A DNA stretch of 64,000 bases, taken from assembly GCF_036046055.1 (NCBI RefSeq), contig NZ_CP107939.1, positions 6,820,001 through 6,884,000 of the forward strand, read 5' to 3'. The notes beneath the pieces were generated by a model, which was not told the origin of the DNA, did not search any database, and worked only from the letters and a program-made list of their open reading frames with translations. Each line of letters opens with the position of its first letter. The stretch's first letter is position 1. A program made the position numbers and the translations under genes. Positions 30,805-49,124 of this stretch are shown in pieces. This DNA is from Nocardia sp. NBC_00403. GTDB taxonomy: Bacteria > Actinomycetota > Actinomycetes > Mycobacteriales > Mycobacteriaceae.

Positions 30805-31827
30805 ATGCGGCTCGCGCGCAGGCTTGCTGCGCTGTTGGGGATCGTTGCCGTGGTGGCGAGTGGGTGCACCCAATCGTCGCAGTCGCCGCCGCCGAACACC
30901 GGTGAACTGCCCTGGCGCAGGGTCGGTGAGGTGGTGTTGACCGGTGGTCCGGCGCGGTTCGACTACACCAGTCTCGACCAGGGGCGTGGGCTGCTGTTCA
31001 TCGCGCACATGGGCGTGGGCGAACTCGTCGAAGTCGATGTGCACAGACACCAGGTGGCCCGCACGATCCCGGATCTGCCTGATGTTCATGGCGTGATCGT
31101 GGTCCCCGACAAGCATCGTGTCTATGCCACGGCTACCGGCCGCAATCAACTGGTCGCCCTCGACGAGGACAGCGGTGCAGTGCTGTTCACCGCACCGACT
31201 GGTAACTATCCCGACGGCCTGGTCTACGACCCGGTCCGCAACGCGGTCTGGACGACCAATGAGCATGCTGGCACCGAGACTGTCGTCGACGCTGACACCG
31301 GAGAAGTCCGCGCCACCGTGGCTTTGGGCGGTGAGGTCGGCAACGTCGTCTATGAACCGGCGGCGGACCGTATGGTGGTAGCCGTGCAGGGCCGCGGGGA
31401 ACTCGCGCTGATCGATCCGGCGGGACACACAGTCACCGAGCGGATTCCAACCCCCGGCTGCGCCAGTCCTCACGGCCAAGCCCTGGACGCCGCCGGACAG
31501 GTGATATTCGTCGGCTGCGAGGCCAATGCCGCCATGGTCACCGTCGATCTGGCCCACCGCGCCGTCACCGGCCACTACAAGGTCGGCGACACCCCCGACG
31601 TGCTGGCCTACGACGCCGGAGCGCACCGGCTGTACGTTGCGGCCGAAAGCGGCTGGGTCAGCTTGTTCGACAGGCGTGACGCGACAACCGTCGCGGTCGG
31701 ATCAACACATCTGGCCGACGGTGCGCACTCCCTGGCGCTCGACCCAGGCACCCACCGCAGCTACGTCCCCGTCCCGAAGGGTCCAGGCGGCGTGCCTGTG
31801 CTGTGGGAATTCGAACCCACCGGCTGA
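30805..31827 (+). CDS. YncE-like beta-propeller lipoprotein
   Basis: The 340-residue protein has a lipoprotein signal (LLGIVAVVASGC; lipid on Cys21). A repeated propeller follows, with blade signatures such as GVIVVPDKHRVYATATGRNQ, LVYDPVRNAVWTTNEHAG and DVLAYDAGAHRLYVAAESG. GGGAGGTGCAGG precedes the ATG. YncE-type proteins bind ligands or partners at the cell surface; no enzymatic residues can be named. The next gene, a DUF1259 lipoprotein, starts 51 bases after the stop, so they probably act together. Confidence 0.85.
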   Translation: MRLARRLAALLGIVAVVASGCTQSSQSPPPNTGELPWRRVGEVVLTGGPARFDYTSLDQGRGLLFIAHMGVGELVEVDVHRHQVARTIPDLPDVHGVIVVPDKHRVYATATGRNQLVALDEDSGAVLFTAPTGNYPDGLVYDPVRNAVWTTNEHAGTETVVDADTGEVRATVALGGEVGNVVYEPAADRMVVAVQGRGELALIDPAGHTVTERIPTPGCASPHGQALDAAGQVIFVGCEANAAMVTVDLAHRAVTGHYKVGDTPDVLAYDAGAHRLYVAAESGWVSLFDRRDATTVAVGSTHLADGAHSLALDPGTHRSYVPVPKGPGGVPVLWEFEPTG

Positions 31828-31877
31828 ATCCGAAGCGTCGCACCAACCGGTGGCGACAACAAGCGAAGGAGAAAGCC

Positions 31878-32855
31878 ATGACTGTTCCGGCACATCGACT
31901 TCCGAGTTGTGCGGCCGTGCTGACCGCCCTGCTAGCGCTCACGGTGGCGATAGGCTGCTCGAATAACGGCGACTCGAGCACGCCGAGCCCGACCACCACC
32001 GCCGAAAGCCAGCACCGACCGGCCACGACCACCGAGACGGACTGGAAGCCGATCACCGAGACTCTCGGCCGCACCGGCAAATTCGGCGACGACAACACTG
32101 TCTACCGCATCCCGCTGGTCCGCACCGACCTGCAGGTGACCACTGCAGGCGTGCCGATCAAACCGGGTCTGTCCCTCGGCGGCTACGCCGTGTTCGGCAA
32201 GTATGACGACGGAACCCTGCTGATGGGCGATCTGGTGGTCACCGAACAGGAGCTGCCCAAGGTCACCGACGCCTTGCACGCCAACGGGATCGAGCAGACC
32301 GCCCTACACAAGCACCTGCTCGAACAGTCCCCGCCGATCTGGTGGACCCACATCCATGCCATGGGCGACCCTGCACAGCTGGCCAAGGGTCTCGAGGCAG
32401 CCCTCGATGCCACCGCCATCGGCCCGGCCGCCGTCCCGCCCGCCCAACAGCCGCCGGTTGACATCGACACCGCCGCCGTCGACGCCGCCCTCGGCCGCAA
32501 AGGCACTGCCGATGGAGGACTGTACAAATACACCCTCGCCCGCGCGGAGACCATCACCGATACCGGACACGTCTTACCCCCGACCTATGGCGTCACCACC
32601 GTCATCAACTTCCAGCCCACCGGAGACGGCAAGGCCGCGATCAATGGCGACTTCGCGCTCACCGGCCCCGAGGTGAACAAGGTCATCGAAGCGCTGCGCC
32701 GTGGCGGTATCTCGGTGGTGGAAGTACACAACCACGCCCTCACCGATAGCCCGCGCCTGTTCTACCTGCACTACTGGGCCAATGAGGACGCCGTCGCCCT
32801 GGCGAAGGCGCTGCGGCCCGCCCTCGACGCCACAAACTTGGCACCGGCCAAATAG
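31878..32855 (+). CDS. DUF1259 lipoprotein with two repeats
   Basis: The 325-residue protein has a lipobox (LALTVAIGC) and two tandem DUF1259 domains. Domain 1 contains VYRIPLVRTDLQVTTAGVPI, MGDLVVTEQELPKVTDALHA and ALHKHLLEQSPPIWWTHIHA. Domain 2 contains YKYTLARAETITDTGHVLP, GDFALTGPEVNKVIEALRRG and EVHNHALTDSPRLFYLHYW. The histidines in these stretches could bind a metal, but the family has no established function. AAGGAGAAAG precedes ATG 31878. It is expected to be anchored outside the cell beside the propeller lipoprotein. Confidence 0.85.
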   Translation: MTVPAHRLPSCAAVLTALLALTVAIGCSNNGDSSTPSPTTTAESQHRPATTTETDWKPITETLGRTGKFGDDNTVYRIPLVRTDLQVTTAGVPIKPGLSLGGYAVFGKYDDGTLLMGDLVVTEQELPKVTDALHANGIEQTALHKHLLEQSPPIWWTHIHAMGDPAQLAKGLEAALDATAIGPAAVPPAQQPPVDIDTAAVDAALGRKGTADGGLYKYTLARAETITDTGHVLPPTYGVTTVINFQPTGDGKAAINGDFALTGPEVNKVIEALRRGGISVVEVHNHALTDSPRLFYLHYWANEDAVALAKALRPALDATNLAPAK

Positions 32856-34138: not shown

Positions 34139-34322
34139 CATGAACTGATTTGCTTCAGCTTGGTCGGAACTTGTCGTTGCAAACCTCGCACCGGATCCCG
34201 CCGGCACTGTAGGTGCTCGGTGCGACTCGGAGAATGTGTGTTCCGCTGGTTACCCGAGGATAAACAATGCGGGTGCGACAGAGACGACTGACAGTCGAGA
34301 AACGCTGCGGCACACTGAGACA

Positions 34323-35081
34323 ATGACCGATGTCGGCAGCCCCCGCCTGTACACCGGTGCCGCCCGCGCGGCGATGGAGCGGGCCGCAAGGCATGCGGCC
34401 GACTGGGGGCACACCCACACCACGCCATTGGACCTGCTGCTCGCGTTGGTAGACGATCACGCATCCGGAATGGTGACTGTGATCCTGGGCGATCTACGCA
34501 TCACGCCGATAGACATTCGCCGTGCGATCGCGGGAAGGGCAGGCACCGCCGCGGCGAGCGCTGCGCCGATAGCTCCTGTACTGGAATGCGCACTGCAGCA
34601 AAACCCGACACTGCCGGTCGGATCCGACCACCTGTTGATCGGTTTGCTCGCAGCCGACGGCGGCGCCACAGACGTGCTCGCCGCACAGGGGGTCACGGTG
34701 GACGCGGTCCGGGCCGCGCGGACTGCAGCCAGCAGTGCCGTGTGCTACGGGTGCGCCGAAGGAGACAGCCGGCCAACGCCTTACACGATCGCTGCGGCGA
34801 ATCTGCCCGATGATCTCACCAAGGTTCTCGACGACATCGAGCACTGGCGCAACGCGAAGGAACAAGCAGTGGACGCCGGGGATTTCGAGCGAGCGGCGCG
34901 CATGCGTGACAAGGAGAAGAAGGCACGCGCAGCGGTTGCCGAGTGGGACGAGTCCACCGTCTGCAACCGACTGGGCATCGCTCTCGACGAAATCCTAAGG
35001 TTGCGAATGGCTACCGACCGGCTCACCGAGCTACTCCATCACAGACACGCAGCTGTCGAGGCCAATCGTAGGGCGCCCTGA
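34323..35081 (+). CDS. Clp N-domain plus UVR-motif protein
   Basis: The 252-residue protein has an N-terminal Clp_N (ClpA/ClpC adaptor-binding) double repeat: AARAAMERAARHAADWGHTH then PVGSDHLLIGLLAADGGATD, about residues 10-140. A UVR motif follows near 185-220 (NAKEQAVDAGDFERAARMRD). ClpC has the same parts around AAA+ modules, but here no ATPase domain is present. It may act as an adaptor for Clp protease or as a stress-sensing protein. One CYGC pair at about residue 140 could bind metal. ATG 34323 is chosen; the frame is open to 34236. Confidence 0.82.
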   Translation: MTDVGSPRLYTGAARAAMERAARHAADWGHTHTTPLDLLLALVDDHASGMVTVILGDLRITPIDIRRAIAGRAGTAAASAAPIAPVLECALQQNPTLPVGSDHLLIGLLAADGGATDVLAAQGVTVDAVRAARTAASSAVCYGCAEGDSRPTPYTIAAANLPDDLTKVLDDIEHWRNAKEQAVDAGDFERAARMRDKEKKARAAVAEWDESTVCNRLGIALDEILRLRMATDRLTELLHHRHAAVEANRRAP

Positions 35082-35411
35082 CCCCGCAGATCCGAACTCT
35101 CTGCTCGACAGCACGACACCAGCAGCAGAGCCATTCACCGGCACCGATCGTCAGATCCCGGAATCGGCATGAGGGTGCGCTCAATGACCGACGCCGGAAG
35201 TCGCAACGTTGCCACACTGGCCAACTTTCATTGCGACCGCCAACTACAGCTGCGAGTCACATACCGTGATCAGGTCGGTAGCAAACTGCCAGCCCGGACA
35301 TCACTCTCGGTGACAGATACGTTGGCCAGTCACAAACACCTTGAAGGCCTCCGTTTTCCGATCCAGCGTGCGACTATCGGTTGCAGTTCGCAAGCAGATC
35401 GGAGGCGATGG
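35082..35411. other. Intergenic region, no gene seen
   Basis: No supported frame or clear regulatory motif is visible between the Clp-N/UVR gene and the broken reductase gene, except the GGAGG of the latter at its end. Confidence 0.45.
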
Positions 35412-36021
35412 ATGGGCGACACCGAGCCGCAGATCGCGGACGGAAAAGTGCTGTGGCACTTCACGATGTCACTGGACGGATTCGTGGCGGGGCCGAACCA
35501 CGAGATGGACTGGATGGCCGGTGTTTCGTTCGATCGGGACCTGGTCGAGGAGTAAGCCGAAACCACCGGCGCCGTGCTGGGGGGAACGGCTGGGACCGAT
35601 TCCCGGACGCCGGCGGTGTGTACGGCGGTGCCTGGCGCGGACTGATCTTCGTGTTCACCCACCACCCCGAGGACGCGACACCTGCCGCTGGAGTCACGTT
35701 CTTGAATTGCGGCGCGGCCGAGGCGGTGCGGCCGAGGCGGTACGGATCGGACTGGCGGTGGCAGGCGGGAAGAACCTCGAAGTGTTCTCGCCGACCATCG
35801 GCCGTCAGCTGCTCGAACTGGGACTGATCGATGAGGTCGACCTGCACATCGCACCGATCCTGCTCGGCGAGGGCATCCGGCTGCACGACAACCCGGGCAG
35901 TGCGCCGATCCGTCTCCACTGGATCAGCGAAGGCGACCCTACGTCGGCCGTCAACGTACGGTACCGACCGGTCTCACCGGCGAAAGATCCCGACCGAGAC
36001 AGTGTCGTCACCGAGCGATGA
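35412..36021 (+). pseudogene. DHFR-like (RibD C-terminal family) reductase, frameshifted
   Basis: It begins with GGAGG, ATG and FTMSLDGFVAGPNHEMDWM, a typical start of the dihydrofolate-reductase-like family. A stop follows at 35553 (DRDLVEE). Later parts lie in other frames: GGVYGGAWRGLIFVFTHHPE in one, then AGGKNLEVFSPTIGRQLLEL and IDEVDLHIAPILLGEGIRL in another, up to the end at 36021. At least two indels separate the pieces. The product was about 200 residues and resembled uncharacterised NADPH-dependent reductases. Confidence 0.85.
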
Positions 36022-36197
36022 CGGTTGGCGCCAGGCCGCGGCGGGCGTCGACAGTCGGCGACGGAGTTGACGAACGGTCGACGTCAGCGCACGACAACAG
36101 CGCGTTCGACTGCGTGCGCTGGATCGACCGGGATGTCGGTGGGCGGCGTTAGGCTTTGCCGCGTTGCGTTGTGAAGTCGAGGTAGGGGGTTGCCGCG

Positions 36198-37421
36198 TTG
36201 ACGATGGATCGAGGCCTGGCGCCGAGTGCGGGCGATGGCGGCCACGATGATGCGGAATTCGAGCTTGTCGACGACATCGAAGGGGATGTGTCGCTCGGGC
36301 TCGAGGAGATCAACGAGTTGTTGGGTGAACTGGTCGAGATGCATGGGGATCGGCGGCGGCGGGATGCGGAGATCGTCGGGTTCCGATTGGGGGTGAGCGG
36401 GGAGGCGCCGGAGACGTTGGCGCGGATCGGGGCCCGATATGACCTGTCGCGGGACCGAATTCGGCAGTTGCATACGCGGGCGGTGGGGCAGATCATTCGG
36501 GAAGCGCAGCTGAGCGGGCATCGAGCGGCGGGGGTGTTCGGGGCGCGATATCCGGTGGGGACGCGGGATTCGCAGTTGGTGCGGGCGTTGCTGGTGGAGA
36601 CGTACGCGACGGACAGCGATATCGCGGCCAACGAGTTGTCGTATCTGAAGCTGCGGCTTGCGGGGCATGCCGGGGAGGACGCGCGGCGGATCGCGGGGTT
36701 TGTGATGCAGCGGATCATGGCATGGCAGAAGAAGACGAATCGGCGGCTGGCGAAGTTGCACCATGCGGAACCGTCGGCGAGCGATGAGGTGAATTCGTGG
36801 CTGGGGCAAGTTGATCGGCCCGGGTCGGTGGTTGCTGCTGCGCTGCCCCGCGGGTCGGCGCGGGTCGTCGACGGCGATGACGACGGTAGGGGCAGGTTCT
36901 ATCTGGGCAAGGTGGGGCGCGACGTGCCGTTCGATTCCGGGCTGGAGGCTCGACTGTTGCGGATCCTCAACGCGAGCGATCTGATCGCCACGTTCCAGGA
37001 GCAGCCGAGCGCCGTCGAATATCAGGTGGACGGCACCGATCGGGTCTTCTACCCGAGCATCGTCGCCGAGCTGGCCGACAAACGGGCCGTGCTGATCGAT
37101 GTCCAACCGCTGGGACACGTCGGCTTTCACATCAATAGGGCCAAGTCGGCTGCGGGGCGTGCCTACGCGCACGCCAACGGGTGGGGCTGGCTGGTCTGGA
37201 CAGGTAGCCGACTCGGTGTGCCGGAACTGCGTGGGCGGCAGGTCGATTCACAGTCCGAGAGTCGGTTGCGTGAGCTGGTCGACAGCGGGCCGGTGCACTG
37301 GCCTGCAATACAACGCTTGCGGACGGAGACCGGACTCGAATTGCTCGACCTCACCACACTGGTCCTGCGCAACGAATGGCGCTGGGATCGCGCGCCGTTC
37401 CGATTGACCGCGGGCCGCTGA
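36198..37421 (+). CDS. Sigma-4-like HTH fused to a TnsA-like nuclease fold
   Basis: The protein has 407 residues. Residues 1-60 are acidic. Residues 66-100 (EAPETLARIGARYDLSRDRI, RQLHTRAVGQII) match the sigma-70 region 4 helix-turn-helix. A helical linker follows. Residues 233-340 resemble the TnsA N-terminal endonuclease: Glu250 in GLEARLLRIL, then IATFQEQPSAVEYQVDG, RVFYPSIVAEL and AVLIDVQPLG. The usual PD and ExK positions read PS and DVQ, so activity is doubtful. The end (HWPAIQRLRTETGLELLDLT) may be another small domain. The TTG start has GGGGG eight bases upstream; ATG 36204 is also possible. The gene converges with a CoiA-like gene. Function is unknown. Confidence 0.78.
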   Translation: MTMDRGLAPSAGDGGHDDAEFELVDDIEGDVSLGLEEINELLGELVEMHGDRRRRDAEIVGFRLGVSGEAPETLARIGARYDLSRDRIRQLHTRAVGQIIREAQLSGHRAAGVFGARYPVGTRDSQLVRALLVETYATDSDIAANELSYLKLRLAGHAGEDARRIAGFVMQRIMAWQKKTNRRLAKLHHAEPSASDEVNSWLGQVDRPGSVVAAALPRGSARVVDGDDDGRGRFYLGKVGRDVPFDSGLEARLLRILNASDLIATFQEQPSAVEYQVDGTDRVFYPSIVAELADKRAVLIDVQPLGHVGFHINRAKSAAGRAYAHANGWGWLVWTGSRLGVPELRGRQVDSQSESRLRELVDSGPVHWPAIQRLRTETGLELLDLTTLVLRNEWRWDRAPFRLTAGR

Positions 37422-37438
37422 CGCGGCCGTCGTCCATC

Positions 37439-38419
37439 TCAGCGCACCACCATCGCACCGGCCAGGAAGGTGACGATCAGCATCATGGCGCAGCAGGTGA
37501 TCAGTTGCCAGTGGCTGATGGTCTGCTGGAGATTGGTGATGGTGGCGCGCAGGCTGGTGTCGACTCGATTGTGGTCGGCGAGCCTGCGCTGCGCTGCGGC
37601 AAGTGAGTCGGCGTGCTCCTGGGTGGATTCCTCGGCGCGCTCCAACCGGGCGGTGAGCTTCATGATCTGTTTCTGCTTGTCCCGCACCGATTTCCGGGAC
37701 AGGGCCAGCGTGGTGCGCTGATTGACCAGTTCCCGGCGTTGGCGGGCGATGACGCTGGCCTGCGTTCTGGTGTGGTGTTCCCAGTCGGTCACGGTTGCCC
37801 ATCCTCCTGTCGTCACGTCGCGGTAGCCCCACACGATGTCACCGGTGACCCAGCCCCGCAGAAAGTCGCGCAGTTCATACGGTTCGCGTTGCGGAACGAC
37901 CACGGCACTGTGCGCGGCGTCGAGCATTCCGAGGTCGATGAGGTAGTCGCAGGCGGGTGGCGCAAGATCGGCGACCCCGATCGCGGGCAAGTAGGCCACC
38001 CAATAGCCCGGCGCGCACAGCCAGAGCACACCGGCACACCCGGACGCACGCAGCCGCTCGGTATGTTGCTGTGCCGAATCCCGATCCAGCGGCCCGCTGC
38101 GCACCTCGATGGCGAACTGCCGGTCGCCGACCCGCCAGTAGATGTCCACCGGCACGTCGCCGACGCGGCGATCAACCTCGGCCTCGTCGGCGCCGTAGGC
38201 GAGCATCCTGGCGGCCAGCCAATACTTCAGCCGCCGAATATTCCATTGCGCGTCGACACATTCCGGGCACCGACAGGCATATCCGGACTCGTCCCGCACC
38301 GGTCCGCGCACACGCCCATCGGACACCGCGTCATCGGACACGCGACTATCCGATATGCCCAATTCGGCGAGCATCGCCCGACGCCCGCAAGCGGTGTCCA
38401 CTCGCTGCTTCGTCCTCAC
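37439..38419 (-). CDS. CoiA-like nuclease-fold protein with C-terminal membrane anchor
   Basis: The 326-residue protein starts at GTG 38419, seven bases after GGGGAG. A CxxC pair (CRCPEC, possible zinc binding) precedes a PD-(D/E)xK-like core, VPVDIYWRVGDRQFAIEVRS, followed by a helix and GCAGVLWLCAPGYWV. This is like the competence protein CoiA, with Arg where CoiA has Gln or Lys. A long coiled coil (about residues 215-300, RKSVRDKQKQIMKLTARLER) and a final hydrophobic helix, LITCCAMMLIVTFLAGAMVV, follow, so it is probably tail-anchored in the membrane. It converges with the TnsA-like gene, 17 bases between stops. Function is unknown. Confidence 0.78.
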   Translation of the reverse strand: MRTKQRVDTACGRRAMLAELGISDSRVSDDAVSDGRVRGPVRDESGYACRCPECVDAQWNIRRLKYWLAARMLAYGADEAEVDRRVGDVPVDIYWRVGDRQFAIEVRSGPLDRDSAQQHTERLRASGCAGVLWLCAPGYWVAYLPAIGVADLAPPACDYLIDLGMLDAAHSAVVVPQREPYELRDFLRGWVTGDIVWGYRDVTTGGWATVTDWEHHTRTQASVIARQRRELVNQRTTLALSRKSVRDKQKQIMKLTARLERAEESTQEHADSLAAAQRRLADHNRVDTSLRATITNLQQTISHWQLITCCAMMLIVTFLAGAMVVR

Positions 38420-46819: not shown

Positions 46820-47355
46820 GCAACATCCCAGTCACCGTCGACCGGGCCGGATTGTGGGACGCCGAGGCCCTCAGTGACGTTGCGGCCGCGACCTTTCCAC
46901 TAGCCTGCCCGCCCGGCGCCACCGCCGACGACATCGAGATCTTCATCAGCGATGTGCTGTCCGGAGAGCGCTTCGGCGAATACCTGACCGACCCGACGCG
47001 CACGGTGCTGAAGGCGGTCGCGAACGGTGACATCGTCGGCTACGCGATGCTGCACGCAGGCGATCCGGCCGATCCCCAGGTCGCCGCGGCGGTGAATCTG
47101 CGGCCGGTCGTCGAGATCAGCAAGATGTATGTGCTGCCGGGCCATCACGGCAGTGGGGTGTCGAAGGCGCTGATGCGCGCCGCACTCCAGCGCGCTCGCG
47201 AAGAGGGGGCCGCGGGAGTCTGGCTCGGGGTCAATCAGGAAAACACCCGTGCCCAACGTTTCTACGCCAAGCACGGGTTCACCAGGGTGGGCACCAAGAC
47301 CTTCCACGTCGGCAACCAGCTGCATCACGACTTCGTGATGCGAATGGCGCTCTAG
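46816..47355 (+). CDS. GNAT N-acetyltransferase
   Basis: The 179-residue protein has the acetyl-CoA binding motif A in ISKMYVLPGHHGSGVSKALM (here HGSGVS replaces the classic R/QxxGxG/A) and motif B in GVNQENTRAQRFYAKHGFTR. It should transfer an acetyl group to an amine; the substrate is unknown. The ATG overlaps the MFS stop by 4 bases. The end overlaps the stop of the convergent hydrolase gene by 4 bases. Confidence 0.9.
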   Translation: MSNIPVTVDRAGLWDAEALSDVAAATFPLACPPGATADDIEIFISDVLSGERFGEYLTDPTRTVLKAVANGDIVGYAMLHAGDPADPQVAAAVNLRPVVEISKMYVLPGHHGSGVSKALMRAALQRAREEGAAGVWLGVNQENTRAQRFYAKHGFTRVGTKTFHVGNQLHHDFVMRMAL

Positions 47356-48107
47356 CTCTTCACGAAATTCACCAGCGCCGCGTGAAATGCCGGTTCGATC
47401 ACGGCCATCAAGTGGTCGCCGGGCACCACGGCCAGGGTGCCGTCGGGTAAGGCGGCGGCGAGGCGTTCGGGTTCAGCGGCGAAGGGGTCGGCGGCGCCTG
47501 CCAGAACCAGCGTGGGCACGGTAACACCGGCCAGTGTGGTGATCGGTTCGTCGTCGAGACCGGTCGCGACCGCCTCGATGGCCACCCGGTCGGCACTGAT
47601 CGCATCGGCGAGAATCCGGAACATCATGGCGACCTGGGATGCGCCCGCGCCGTCGCCGTGCATGGCGGTGCGCAGGTCGTCGATGTCGATGACGCGGCGG
47701 TCGACGCCACCGCAGTCGAGCACACCCGAGCCGATGCCGCCGACGGCCAGCTTCGTCACCCGATCGTCGGCGGCCGCGACCAGCAGCGAGATGACCCCGC
47801 CCATCGAATAGCCGACCTGCACAACGCGATCGAAGCCGAGCTCGTCGTACAGCGCGCTGACGTCCTTCGCCATCGCCGCCCACGAGTACCGCGCGGCATC
47901 GTGCGGTTTGTCCGAGCGGCCGTGTCCGCGGGCGTCGAGCGAGACGACGGTGTGCCCGGCAGCCCGCAAGGCCTGCACCACACCAGTGCCCATCCAGTTG
48001 GCGTTGGTGTCGGCGACGACCCCGTGCTGTAGCACGACCGGGACCCCGTCGCCCTCCCACACACGGTAGTTGAGCTCCAACCCGTCCCAGGTCTCGAACT
48101 TCGTCAT
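47352..48107 (-). CDS. Alpha/beta hydrolase
   Basis: The 251-residue protein has the alpha/beta-hydrolase fold: VVLQHGVVADTNANWMG (oxyanion region), SLDARGHGRSDKPHD, the nucleophile serine in VVQVGYSMGGVISLL, aspartate in LVLAGAADPFAAEPE and histidine in VPGDHLMAV. The triad is complete. It has no signal peptide, so it acts in the cytoplasm as an esterase, lipase or C-C hydrolase of unknown substrate. It appears monocistronic, and its promoter region faces the ABC operon. Confidence 0.9.
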   Translation of the reverse strand: MTKFETWDGLELNYRVWEGDGVPVVLQHGVVADTNANWMGTGVVQALRAAGHTVVSLDARGHGRSDKPHDAARYSWAAMAKDVSALYDELGFDRVVQVGYSMGGVISLLVAAADDRVTKLAVGGIGSGVLDCGGVDRRVIDIDDLRTAMHGDGAGASQVAMMFRILADAISADRVAIEAVATGLDDEPITTLAGVTVPTLVLAGAADPFAAEPERLAAALPDGTLAVVPGDHLMAVIEPAFHAALVNFVKS

Positions 48108-48137
48108 GCCCGCATCGTAATAGGGTCCGACTCGGGG

Positions 48138-48171
48138 TTGACAAGTTCTGGATGTTCAGTCTTTACTGAAC
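48138..48171 (+). promoter_or_regulatory. Promoter with overlapping palindrome for the ABC operon
   Basis: TTGACA (48138-48143) and TTTACT (48162-48167) are 18 bases apart, a good sigma-70-type promoter. GTTCAGT (48154-48160) and ACTGAAC (48165-48171) form a perfect palindrome over the -10 box, about 65 bases before the ATPase start. A repressor there, perhaps the GbsR/MarR protein encoded downstream, would block transcription. Confidence 0.65.
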
Positions 48172-48236
48172 ACATCAGTTCTTACGGAAACCACAAGACA
48201 TACAGAACCTGATCGAGAACCTTTCGAAGGAGCATC

Positions 48237-49124
48237 ATGACCACCGCCGCGATTCGCACCGAGGGCCTGACCAAGCACTACGGCAAGCATGTCGCCCTCA
48301 CCGAGCTGAATCTCGAGGTCGGCCAGGGCGAGGTATTCGGATTTCTCGGGCCCAATGGCGCGGGCAAGTCCACCACCATCCGCATCCTGCTGGATCTGAT
48401 CCGACCGACCTCGGGCCACGTCGAAGTTCTCGGCGTCGATCCGCGCGCAGGCGGCGCAGAACTGCGCAAGCGCATCGGCTATCTGCCGGGCGAGCTCGAG
48501 ATCGAGGGCCGCAACACCGCACGCGACCTGCTCGGGTTCCTGGCCGATCTGCGCGGCACGGTCCCGGCGAATCGGATCACCGACCTCGCCGATCTGCTCG
48601 ATCTGGATCTGTCCAAGAAGGTCGGCGCGATGTCCAAGGGCAACAAGCAGAAGGTCGGCATCATCGCCGCCTTCATGCACAACCCGGACCTGCTCATCCT
48701 CGACGAACCGACCTCCGGCCTGGATCCGCTACTGCAGCAGCGCTTCCTGGACCTGGTCACCGCGGCGAAGCACAACGGGCAGACGGTGTTCATGTCCTCC
48801 CACATTCTCAGCGAAGTGCAGCAGACCGCCGATCGGGCCGTCATCATGCGCGCGGGCAAGCTGCTCGGCACCGAGAACGTCGAGGATTTGCGGCGGCGTT
48901 CGCCGCGCTCGGTCGAGCTGGTGTTCGGCGAGGATATTTTCGCCGATGACTTCGCAAAGCTGCCCGATGTGCGCGACCTGACCATCGAGGGAAAAACGTT
49001 GCGCTGCACCACCGAAGGTGAAGTCGACGACCTGTTCAAGATGGCGGCGAAGTACCGCCTGGTCAGCGTGCTCTCCACCGAGCCGGATCTCGAGCAGATC
49101 TTCTTCAGCCTCTACGGCCGCTGA
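48237..49124 (+). CDS. ABC transporter ATP-binding protein
   Basis: The 295-residue ATPase has Walker A GPNGAGKST, the signature MSKGNKQKVG (a variant of LSGGQ, common in exporters of this type), Walker B LLILDEPTSGLDPLLQ and an H-loop in MSSHILSEVQQTADR. A C-terminal extension with VRDLTIEGKTLRCTTEGEVD is typical of DrrA/CcmA-like subunits. GAAGGAGCATC precedes the ATG. It energises the membrane protein encoded next, probably for export of a drug or lipid-like compound. Confidence 0.94.
   Translation: MTTAAIRTEGLTKHYGKHVALTELNLEVGQGEVFGFLGPNGAGKSTTIRILLDLIRPTSGHVEVLGVDPRAGGAELRKRIGYLPGELEIEGRNTARDLLGFLADLRGTVPANRITDLADLLDLDLSKKVGAMSKGNKQKVGIIAAFMHNPDLLILDEPTSGLDPLLQQRFLDLVTAAKHNGQTVFMSSHILSEVQQTADRAVIMRAGKLLGTENVEDLRRRSPRSVELVFGEDIFADDFAKLPDVRDLTIEGKTLRCTTEGEVDDLFKMAAKYRLVSVLSTEPDLEQIFFSLYGR

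Follow-up and report, generated by a model that had tools for sequence, protein, structure and literature searches.

A sigma-region-4/TnsA-like protein with a degenerate active site and a membrane-tailed CoiA-like protein are conserved convergent neighbours in Nocardia, the former behind a DNA damage-type promoter sequence

Two convergent genes, A and B, were analyzed in a 64,000-nucleotide stretch of the Nocardia sp. NBC_00403 genome (the window) and compared across Nocardia, other genera, and plasmids. On sequence evidence, the best explanation (probability about 0.6) is that A is a domesticated, damage-induced, DNA-binding protein that does not cut, and that B is a separately expressed, membrane-anchored, altered CoiA. 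The data suggest that an enzyme from a mobile element was recruited as a DNA-damage protein in the case of A. If this is true, two mobile-type nuclease families with lost or altered active sites have been fixed as core genes, one of the two under a DNA-damage promoter, in a genus whose core genome is small and whose gene turnover is high according to an excerpt of PMC12153302.

Gene A (36204–37421, forward strand) encodes 405 amino acids from an ATG, a length that agrees with database protein P0003 (405 aa, 99% identical). An alternative TTG start is possible at 36198, from which residues are numbered here. Gene B (37439–38419, reverse strand) encodes 326 amino acids from a GTG. The stops of the two genes are separated by a 17-base spacer (37422–37438), exactly as the sequence-only reading had described. 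A cluster of four tRNA genes lies 5' of A. Between the cluster and A, 34236–35081 codes for a 281-aa protein whose only Pfam matches are Clp N-terminal and UVR, and 35169–36021 contains multi-frame pieces resembling a broken reductase, including an ORF (35341–36021) with a RibD_C match just under the cut-off. A YncE-like and lipoprotein gene pair is located further upstream of A (30805–32855).

The product of A combines a sigma-region-4 helix-turn-helix (HTH), a helical middle, and a TnsA-like pseudo-nuclease. The HTH (36357–36494, residues 54–99) matches Pfam sigma-70 region 4 above the cut-off (E = 1.2e-6) and has a structural match to sigma domain 4. It is followed on the same strand by a conserved helical section (36525–36764, residues 110–189) and a domain identified as a TnsA fold (36846–37211, residues 217–338). 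The fusion of a sigma-region-4 HTH to a TnsA-like domain had been called from motifs and is upheld here. The recognition helix RDRxRQ, which reads RDRIRQ in the window (36450–36467), is invariant: R85, D86, R87, R89, and Q90 are present in 122/122 core Nocardia A proteins. This invariance and the structural match would fit a sigma-like transcription regulator that contacts −35-type DNA or the flap of RNA polymerase through region 4 and uses the dead TnsA fold only to dimerize. We regard such a regulator as unlikely, given that invariant columns also occur throughout the middle helices and in the TnsA part and that sigma regions 2 and 3 are absent (Pfam, no match at E ≤ 1), so A cannot be a full sigma factor.

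Catalytic positions in the TnsA fold are degenerate. The window has E250 (36945), S287 (37056), D301 (37098), and Q303 (37104), all on the forward strand, and the complete E..D..ExK triad occurs in none of the 122 core proteins, with D at position 287 in one and K at position 303 in none. The PD and ExK motifs are thus degenerate across the genus, as had been read from the single sequence; Glu250, kept in the window, is present in 64 of the 122. D246 and D301 are conserved, so an unusual active site is still conceivable. In one A gene (G071, locus L299), the helical part and the TnsA domain are separated by a repetitive insert of ~80 residues that stays in frame.

Relatives of A outside the Nocardia core comprised plasmid proteins together with entries from the best 120 of 196 matches (P0229–P0273 minus P0262, a core member); entries below P0273 were ordinary sigma factors or HTH fragments and were left aside. 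The triad is intact in 45 of 47 non-core relatives, most of which are not proven to be plasmid-borne. The remaining two are P0272, a fragment without the domain, and P0260, which has EEEK. The recognition helix is similarly retained (R85 in 42 relatives; D86, R87, R89, and Q90 in 45), with the region missing in two. With midpoint rooting, a tree built from 31 of the 122 core sequences and 46 of the 47 others places core A in one group (support 0.90) that is nested in intact-triad sequences and is sister to actinobacterial-type intact ones. This topology is most simply explained by the triad having been lost once, on the Nocardia stem. One Nocardia protein with the triad kept (P0261) falls outside the core group.

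Both A and B are Nocardia core genes. Full-length A is present in 147 of 148 genomes, including one with a TGA within the aligned stretch (G022) and one in which A is in two pieces of one open frame (G071). B is likewise present in 147 of 148, with one copy ending at a contig end (G015). The genome with neither full-length A nor B (G054) has an A match only at E 3e-5. Its assembly is split into 1340 contigs, with the flanking ZapE-like gene 336 bases away from the end of a contig, which leaves loss and an assembly gap indistinguishable. The neighborhood supposed from the window is kept across the genus, with A and B convergent on the same contig in 146 of 147 genomes (in G068 they are on two contigs). 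The gap between them, measured from alignment ends and hence approximate, is ≤200 bases in 110 of 146 genomes and >200 bases in 36, up to 21 kb; the frames overlap in 52.

The 36 loci that we inspected were hand-chosen to include many with additional sequence separating the two genes. Eight of the intervening genes at hand-picked loci were scanned and code for two P-type ATPases, two FAD-dependent oxidoreductases, a solute-binding protein, a protein kinase, a MACPF-domain protein, and one protein with no match. Very long genes (about 1500–1900 codons) occur between A and B at six loci (L058, L059, L060, L061, L062, and L063), and the two that were scanned (L059 and L062) are P-type ATPases. 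ARAGORN identified a Gly-Cys-Val tRNA cluster at 16 of the 36 hand-picked loci (with a further tRNA-Val at 15), a lone tRNA-Gly at nine, and no tRNA inside the stretch at 11. Gene content between the tRNAs and A differs among loci.

There is about an even chance that A and B are linked by synteny alone, as core genes beside a tRNA cluster with no common function, an explanation that is compatible with the one we prefer. The 36 of 146 genomes with >200 bases between the genes and a promoter on A only (see below) are in keeping with it, as is the behavior of a control MFS gene beyond B. Scored at E ≤ 1e-60 only, the MFS gene was found in 82 of 148 genomes; in 79 of these it shared a contig with B, and in 78 the two were no more than 10 kb apart. 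Against synteny alone, the MFS gene is found at this threshold in just those 82 genomes and A and B are closer to each other than B is to it, with distances of ≤200 bases in 110 of 146 genomes for A–B and in 0 of 79 for B–MFS. That A and B are linked in function is a putative relationship only.

Values of dN/dS indicate that A and B are under purifying selection. The 12 most similar pairs range from 0.085 to 0.28 for A and from 0.09 to 0.19 for B. When every pair with pS < 0.6 is counted, the medians for A (0.42, 504 pairs) and B (0.43, 546 pairs) are higher than those for the LysR (0.27, 95 pairs) and FMO (0.37, 120 pairs) genes, so A and B are under looser constraint than these neighbors. 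These estimates and the promoter scores for 35 loci below used 35 of 37 sources for A (L069 and L080 yielded no A call) and likewise 35 of 37 for B.

A and B are rare in the other sampled genera. All named matches are Nocardia among the best 120 of 166 for A and among 99 for B. A full-length A profile was searched against 230 genomes from 30 other genera of the family, with the top seven candidates per genome scored; the best E value per genome was no better than 1.7e-10, and the matches listed cover the HTH part only. A profile of the TnsA part alone was compared with about 349 non-Nocardia genomes (401 genomes minus 52 matching Nocardia) and produced a strong match in two (G378 and G446) and a weaker match in seven (E 2e-10 to 7e-9). 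The TnsA-type gene of G378 keeps E..D..ExK by eye, and no ORF was reported by the ORF caller at the strong match in G446. Look-alikes of the YncE-like and lipoprotein pair (by eye) lie on contig C1 of G378 (L282, 15789–17793), ~6 kb from a triad-keeping sigma4-TnsA gene. A B-type protein was found in one non-Nocardia genome (G161, 66% complete).

Three parts that the sequence-only reading assigned to B are present. On the reverse strand, they are a CoiA-like core of the PD-ExQ type (37970–38242, residues 60–150), a coiled coil (37505–37783) within a single predicted helix (213–325), and a C-terminal hydrophobic tail identified by hydropathy (37448–37507). B has no CoiA (PF06054) profile match in the Pfam scan, and Foldseek returned no match at E ≤ 0.001. 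The active site of CoiA is given as PD-EXQ in an extract of PMC1189080. Among 100 core B proteins, D92 is kept in 97, E105 in 95, and Q107 in none; position 107, which is R107 in the window, is R in 74, S in 16, H in four, C in three, T in two, and V in one. The membrane tail is present in 100/100, and core B has a new Cys motif, unlike CoiA.

Four relatives of B suggest that it is of mobile-element ancestry. P0222, from G161, passes CoiA_nuc and shares 35% identity with B across 246 aa. Three further CoiA-like coiled-coil genes are found in Nocardia genomes (L284, L285, and L286), in surroundings judged by eye to be mobile-looking. All four of these mobile-type proteins have PD and ExQ, and a tail was called in three. 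A SprT-like gene (by eye) adjoins the CoiA-like coiled-coil gene in 4/4 stretches (L084, L284, L285, and L286). With D92 and E105 kept, B might still cut. Cutting by B, and perhaps also by A, through an unusual active site is in our view quite unlikely: the conserved D92 and E105 of B and D246 and D301 of A would fit, but B is without Q107, and in A, E250 is variable, D287 occurs in 1/122, and K303 in 0/122.

A conserved convergent pair, within 200 bases in 110 of 146 genomes, with A relatives on plasmids and B relatives on mobile-type stretches, could also be a two-gene defense or DNA-processing system that directs nuclease folds against foreign DNA at the membrane. Defense had been raised from the sequence together with DNA uptake and phage sensing. 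We found evidence for neither of the latter two, and the proposed defense island does not fit, with A and B being core genes and those with a match among the eight genes scanned between them in other species coding for kinase, transport, oxidoreductase, and MACPF-domain proteins. A defense pair is very unlikely on these grounds and because the full A triad is seen in 0/122 proteins, the Q of B is lost in 100/100, the damage-type promoter is on A only, and no mobile element was seen with both an A-type and a B-type gene.

Several candidate assignments were tried and rejected. PADLOC matched A at the HTH only and B at the coiled coil only, and none of five genes between A and B in other species had a PADLOC match at E ≤ 0.001. 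For the MZA defense system, MzaA aligned to A at the HTH only (residues about 52–100), with 28 bits against a cut-off of 800. A phage origin was set aside after the phage collection gave no match for P0222 (E ≤ 1e-3) or P0224 (E ≤ 1e-10). PLSDB plasmids contained no B-type gene with P0222 and B as queries. Profile A4, searched against genome and viral contigs, matched the HTH part only past the first few entries, and L176 was set aside as phage sigma factors. A CoiA domain turned up in a phage-defense screen, as stated in a portion of PMC9519451, and no tie between it and B appeared in this analysis.

Upstream of A, the window contains TGTCGGTG-N8-TAGGCT (36134–36155, forward strand), and TGTCGGTG-N8-TA-N3-T is conserved ahead of A in most of the Nocardia loci compared. 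The RecA-NDp promoter was reportedly defined by Gamulin in 2004 as TTGTCRGTG-N8-TANNNT, and by this consensus we take the conserved sequence to be a RecA-NDp (PafBC)-type promoter. Exact sites occur 38 times in the 8.7 Mb genome, one of them at 36134–36155, and a reversed-pattern control occurs 0 times. On a 12-position score, 25 of 35 A loci reach at least 10 and 16 reach at least 11, compared with 1.1% and 0 of Markov resamples. Scores of at least 10 were absent upstream of B (0/35), C (0/8), LysR (0/15), FMO (0/15), MFS (0/18), and c2 (0/21). In a wider set of 67 distinct Nocardia upstream regions of A, 48 score at least 10 (three of these sites are 184–210 bases away) and 32 at least 11, with resamples at 0.7% and 0. 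The other 19 of the 67 score below 10, and some members of the genus may therefore lack the promoter or have it at another position. Two mycobacterial plasmid relatives of A have upstream scores of 10 and 9.

Other sites in the same genome stand mostly before genes for repair or replication (13/15 scanned ORFs), a proportion that is not unbiased, as the 15 were chosen by eye from 37 ORFs as recognizable. The 13 are RecA, PolA, UvrA, UvrB, two NAD ligases, a RarA-type protein, deoxyribonuclease IV, SbcD, a Fpg-type glycosylase, DnaX, pol III delta', and an AlkZ-like protein; the remaining two are a WGR-domain protein and TnpB. Several of the scanned ORFs are truncated where the fetched stretch ends and score below their curated cut-offs. 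The genome encodes PafC (E = 2e-41). No LexA box (GAAC-N4-GTTC) was found upstream of A or B in the window, and TTGAC upstream of A is not significant (5/35 vs a shuffle mean of 2.25, largest 9). A is probably damage-induced via PafBC.

Four 383-codon ORFs with similar first 60 residues (L307, L309, L321, and L323, near 402, 1318, 6294, and 7924 kb of the host genome) begin 7 bases past the −10 element of a site with the RecA-NDp pattern. L309, the one that was scanned, is an IS605-type TnpB, and an insertion element may use the damage promoter.

Under the proposed domestication of A, its ancestor would have been a sigma4-HTH/TnsA endonuclease of the plasmid-found family, in which the catalytic residues were gone before the Nocardia radiation and the recognition helix was retained. 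A would be transcribed from the PafBC (RecA-NDp) promoter; the targets of its sigma4 HTH would be promoter-like DNA, DNA at damaged loci, or RNA polymerase, while the dead TnsA fold may act as a DNA clamp or dimer platform. B would be anchored to the membrane by its coiled coil and tail, probably binding DNA there, with the two genes remaining conserved convergent neighbors whose expression is separate. Induction of A, DNA binding, and the functions of both proteins are predictions drawn from these comparisons of sequences. The PafC HTH touches sigma A domain 4 according to a section of PMC11804915, making the sigma4 domain of A a possible decoy. A could accordingly be imagined as a damage-induced brake, whose sigma-4-like domain competes for PafC or RNA polymerase and thereby turns off the PafBC response; alternatively, both proteins could be dominant-negative against intact A- and B-type nucleases brought into Nocardia by mobile elements. 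We consider this proposal quite improbable and return to domestication of A as the preferred reading.

We searched for relatives of A on plasmids and prior work on them. A tblastn search with A returned 292 plasmid records, comprising Mycobacterium abscessus pGD21-1 (41%), an M. farcinogenes plasmid (39%), one Niallia, and for the rest mostly Escherichia and Shigella. Among the matches listed, those in Escherichia and Shigella are 26% identical over A residues 54–353 and include both domains, and the pGD21-1 protein is about 40% identical to A over 407 aligned positions. With the pIP72 protein as query, 315 plasmid records were found, of which 302 are typed conjugative. The first three plasmid proteins retrieved exceed both Pfam cut-offs. 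In pCT, the A-type gene (47259–48845) sits between excA and a Hok/Gef gene, and its product has about 100 extra N-terminal residues relative to A, a sigma4 domain, and an intact E..D..ExK by eye. In pIP72, an IS3 transposase gene separates excA from the A-type gene and the protein start is later. Primer positions for pCT_066, as given in part of PMC3377399, fall within pCT 47259–48845, and one of these primers was located inside the gene. Excerpts of Cottell et al. 2014 (PMC4083329) report that inactivation of pCT_066 ("putative sigma factor") left stability, conjugation, host growth, biofilm, and competition unaffected; a knock-out without phenotype offers no clue to function. Our literature search found no paper describing a sigma4-TnsA fusion as such. 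The convergent neighbor of the A relative on pGD21-1 is not a B homolog.

Compared with known systems, A resembles the PafBC/RecA-NDp regulon in promoter sequence and spacing, which recA, uvrA, uvrB, and polA of the same genome also have, and is not among the known members as far as we found. The core of B can be aligned with the four CoiA-like (PF06054) mobile-type proteins, and coiled coils are common to all, but the PD-ExQ active site of CoiA is incomplete in core B, with Q substituted in 100/100. No tnsB or tnsC was recognized beside A by eye among the window ORFs, and A differs from TnsA of Tn7 in its lost triad and fused sigma4 domain. The closest likeness is to the plasmid sigma4-TnsA proteins (pCT_066 of the IncK plasmid pCT, pIP72, and pGD21-1), which have the same order of the two domains as A over their full length. 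Because it is without the intact triad of that family, A is classed by its sequence as a non-catalytic branch: the plasmid proteins keep E..D..ExK, whereas A is chromosomal, core, and catalytically degenerate.
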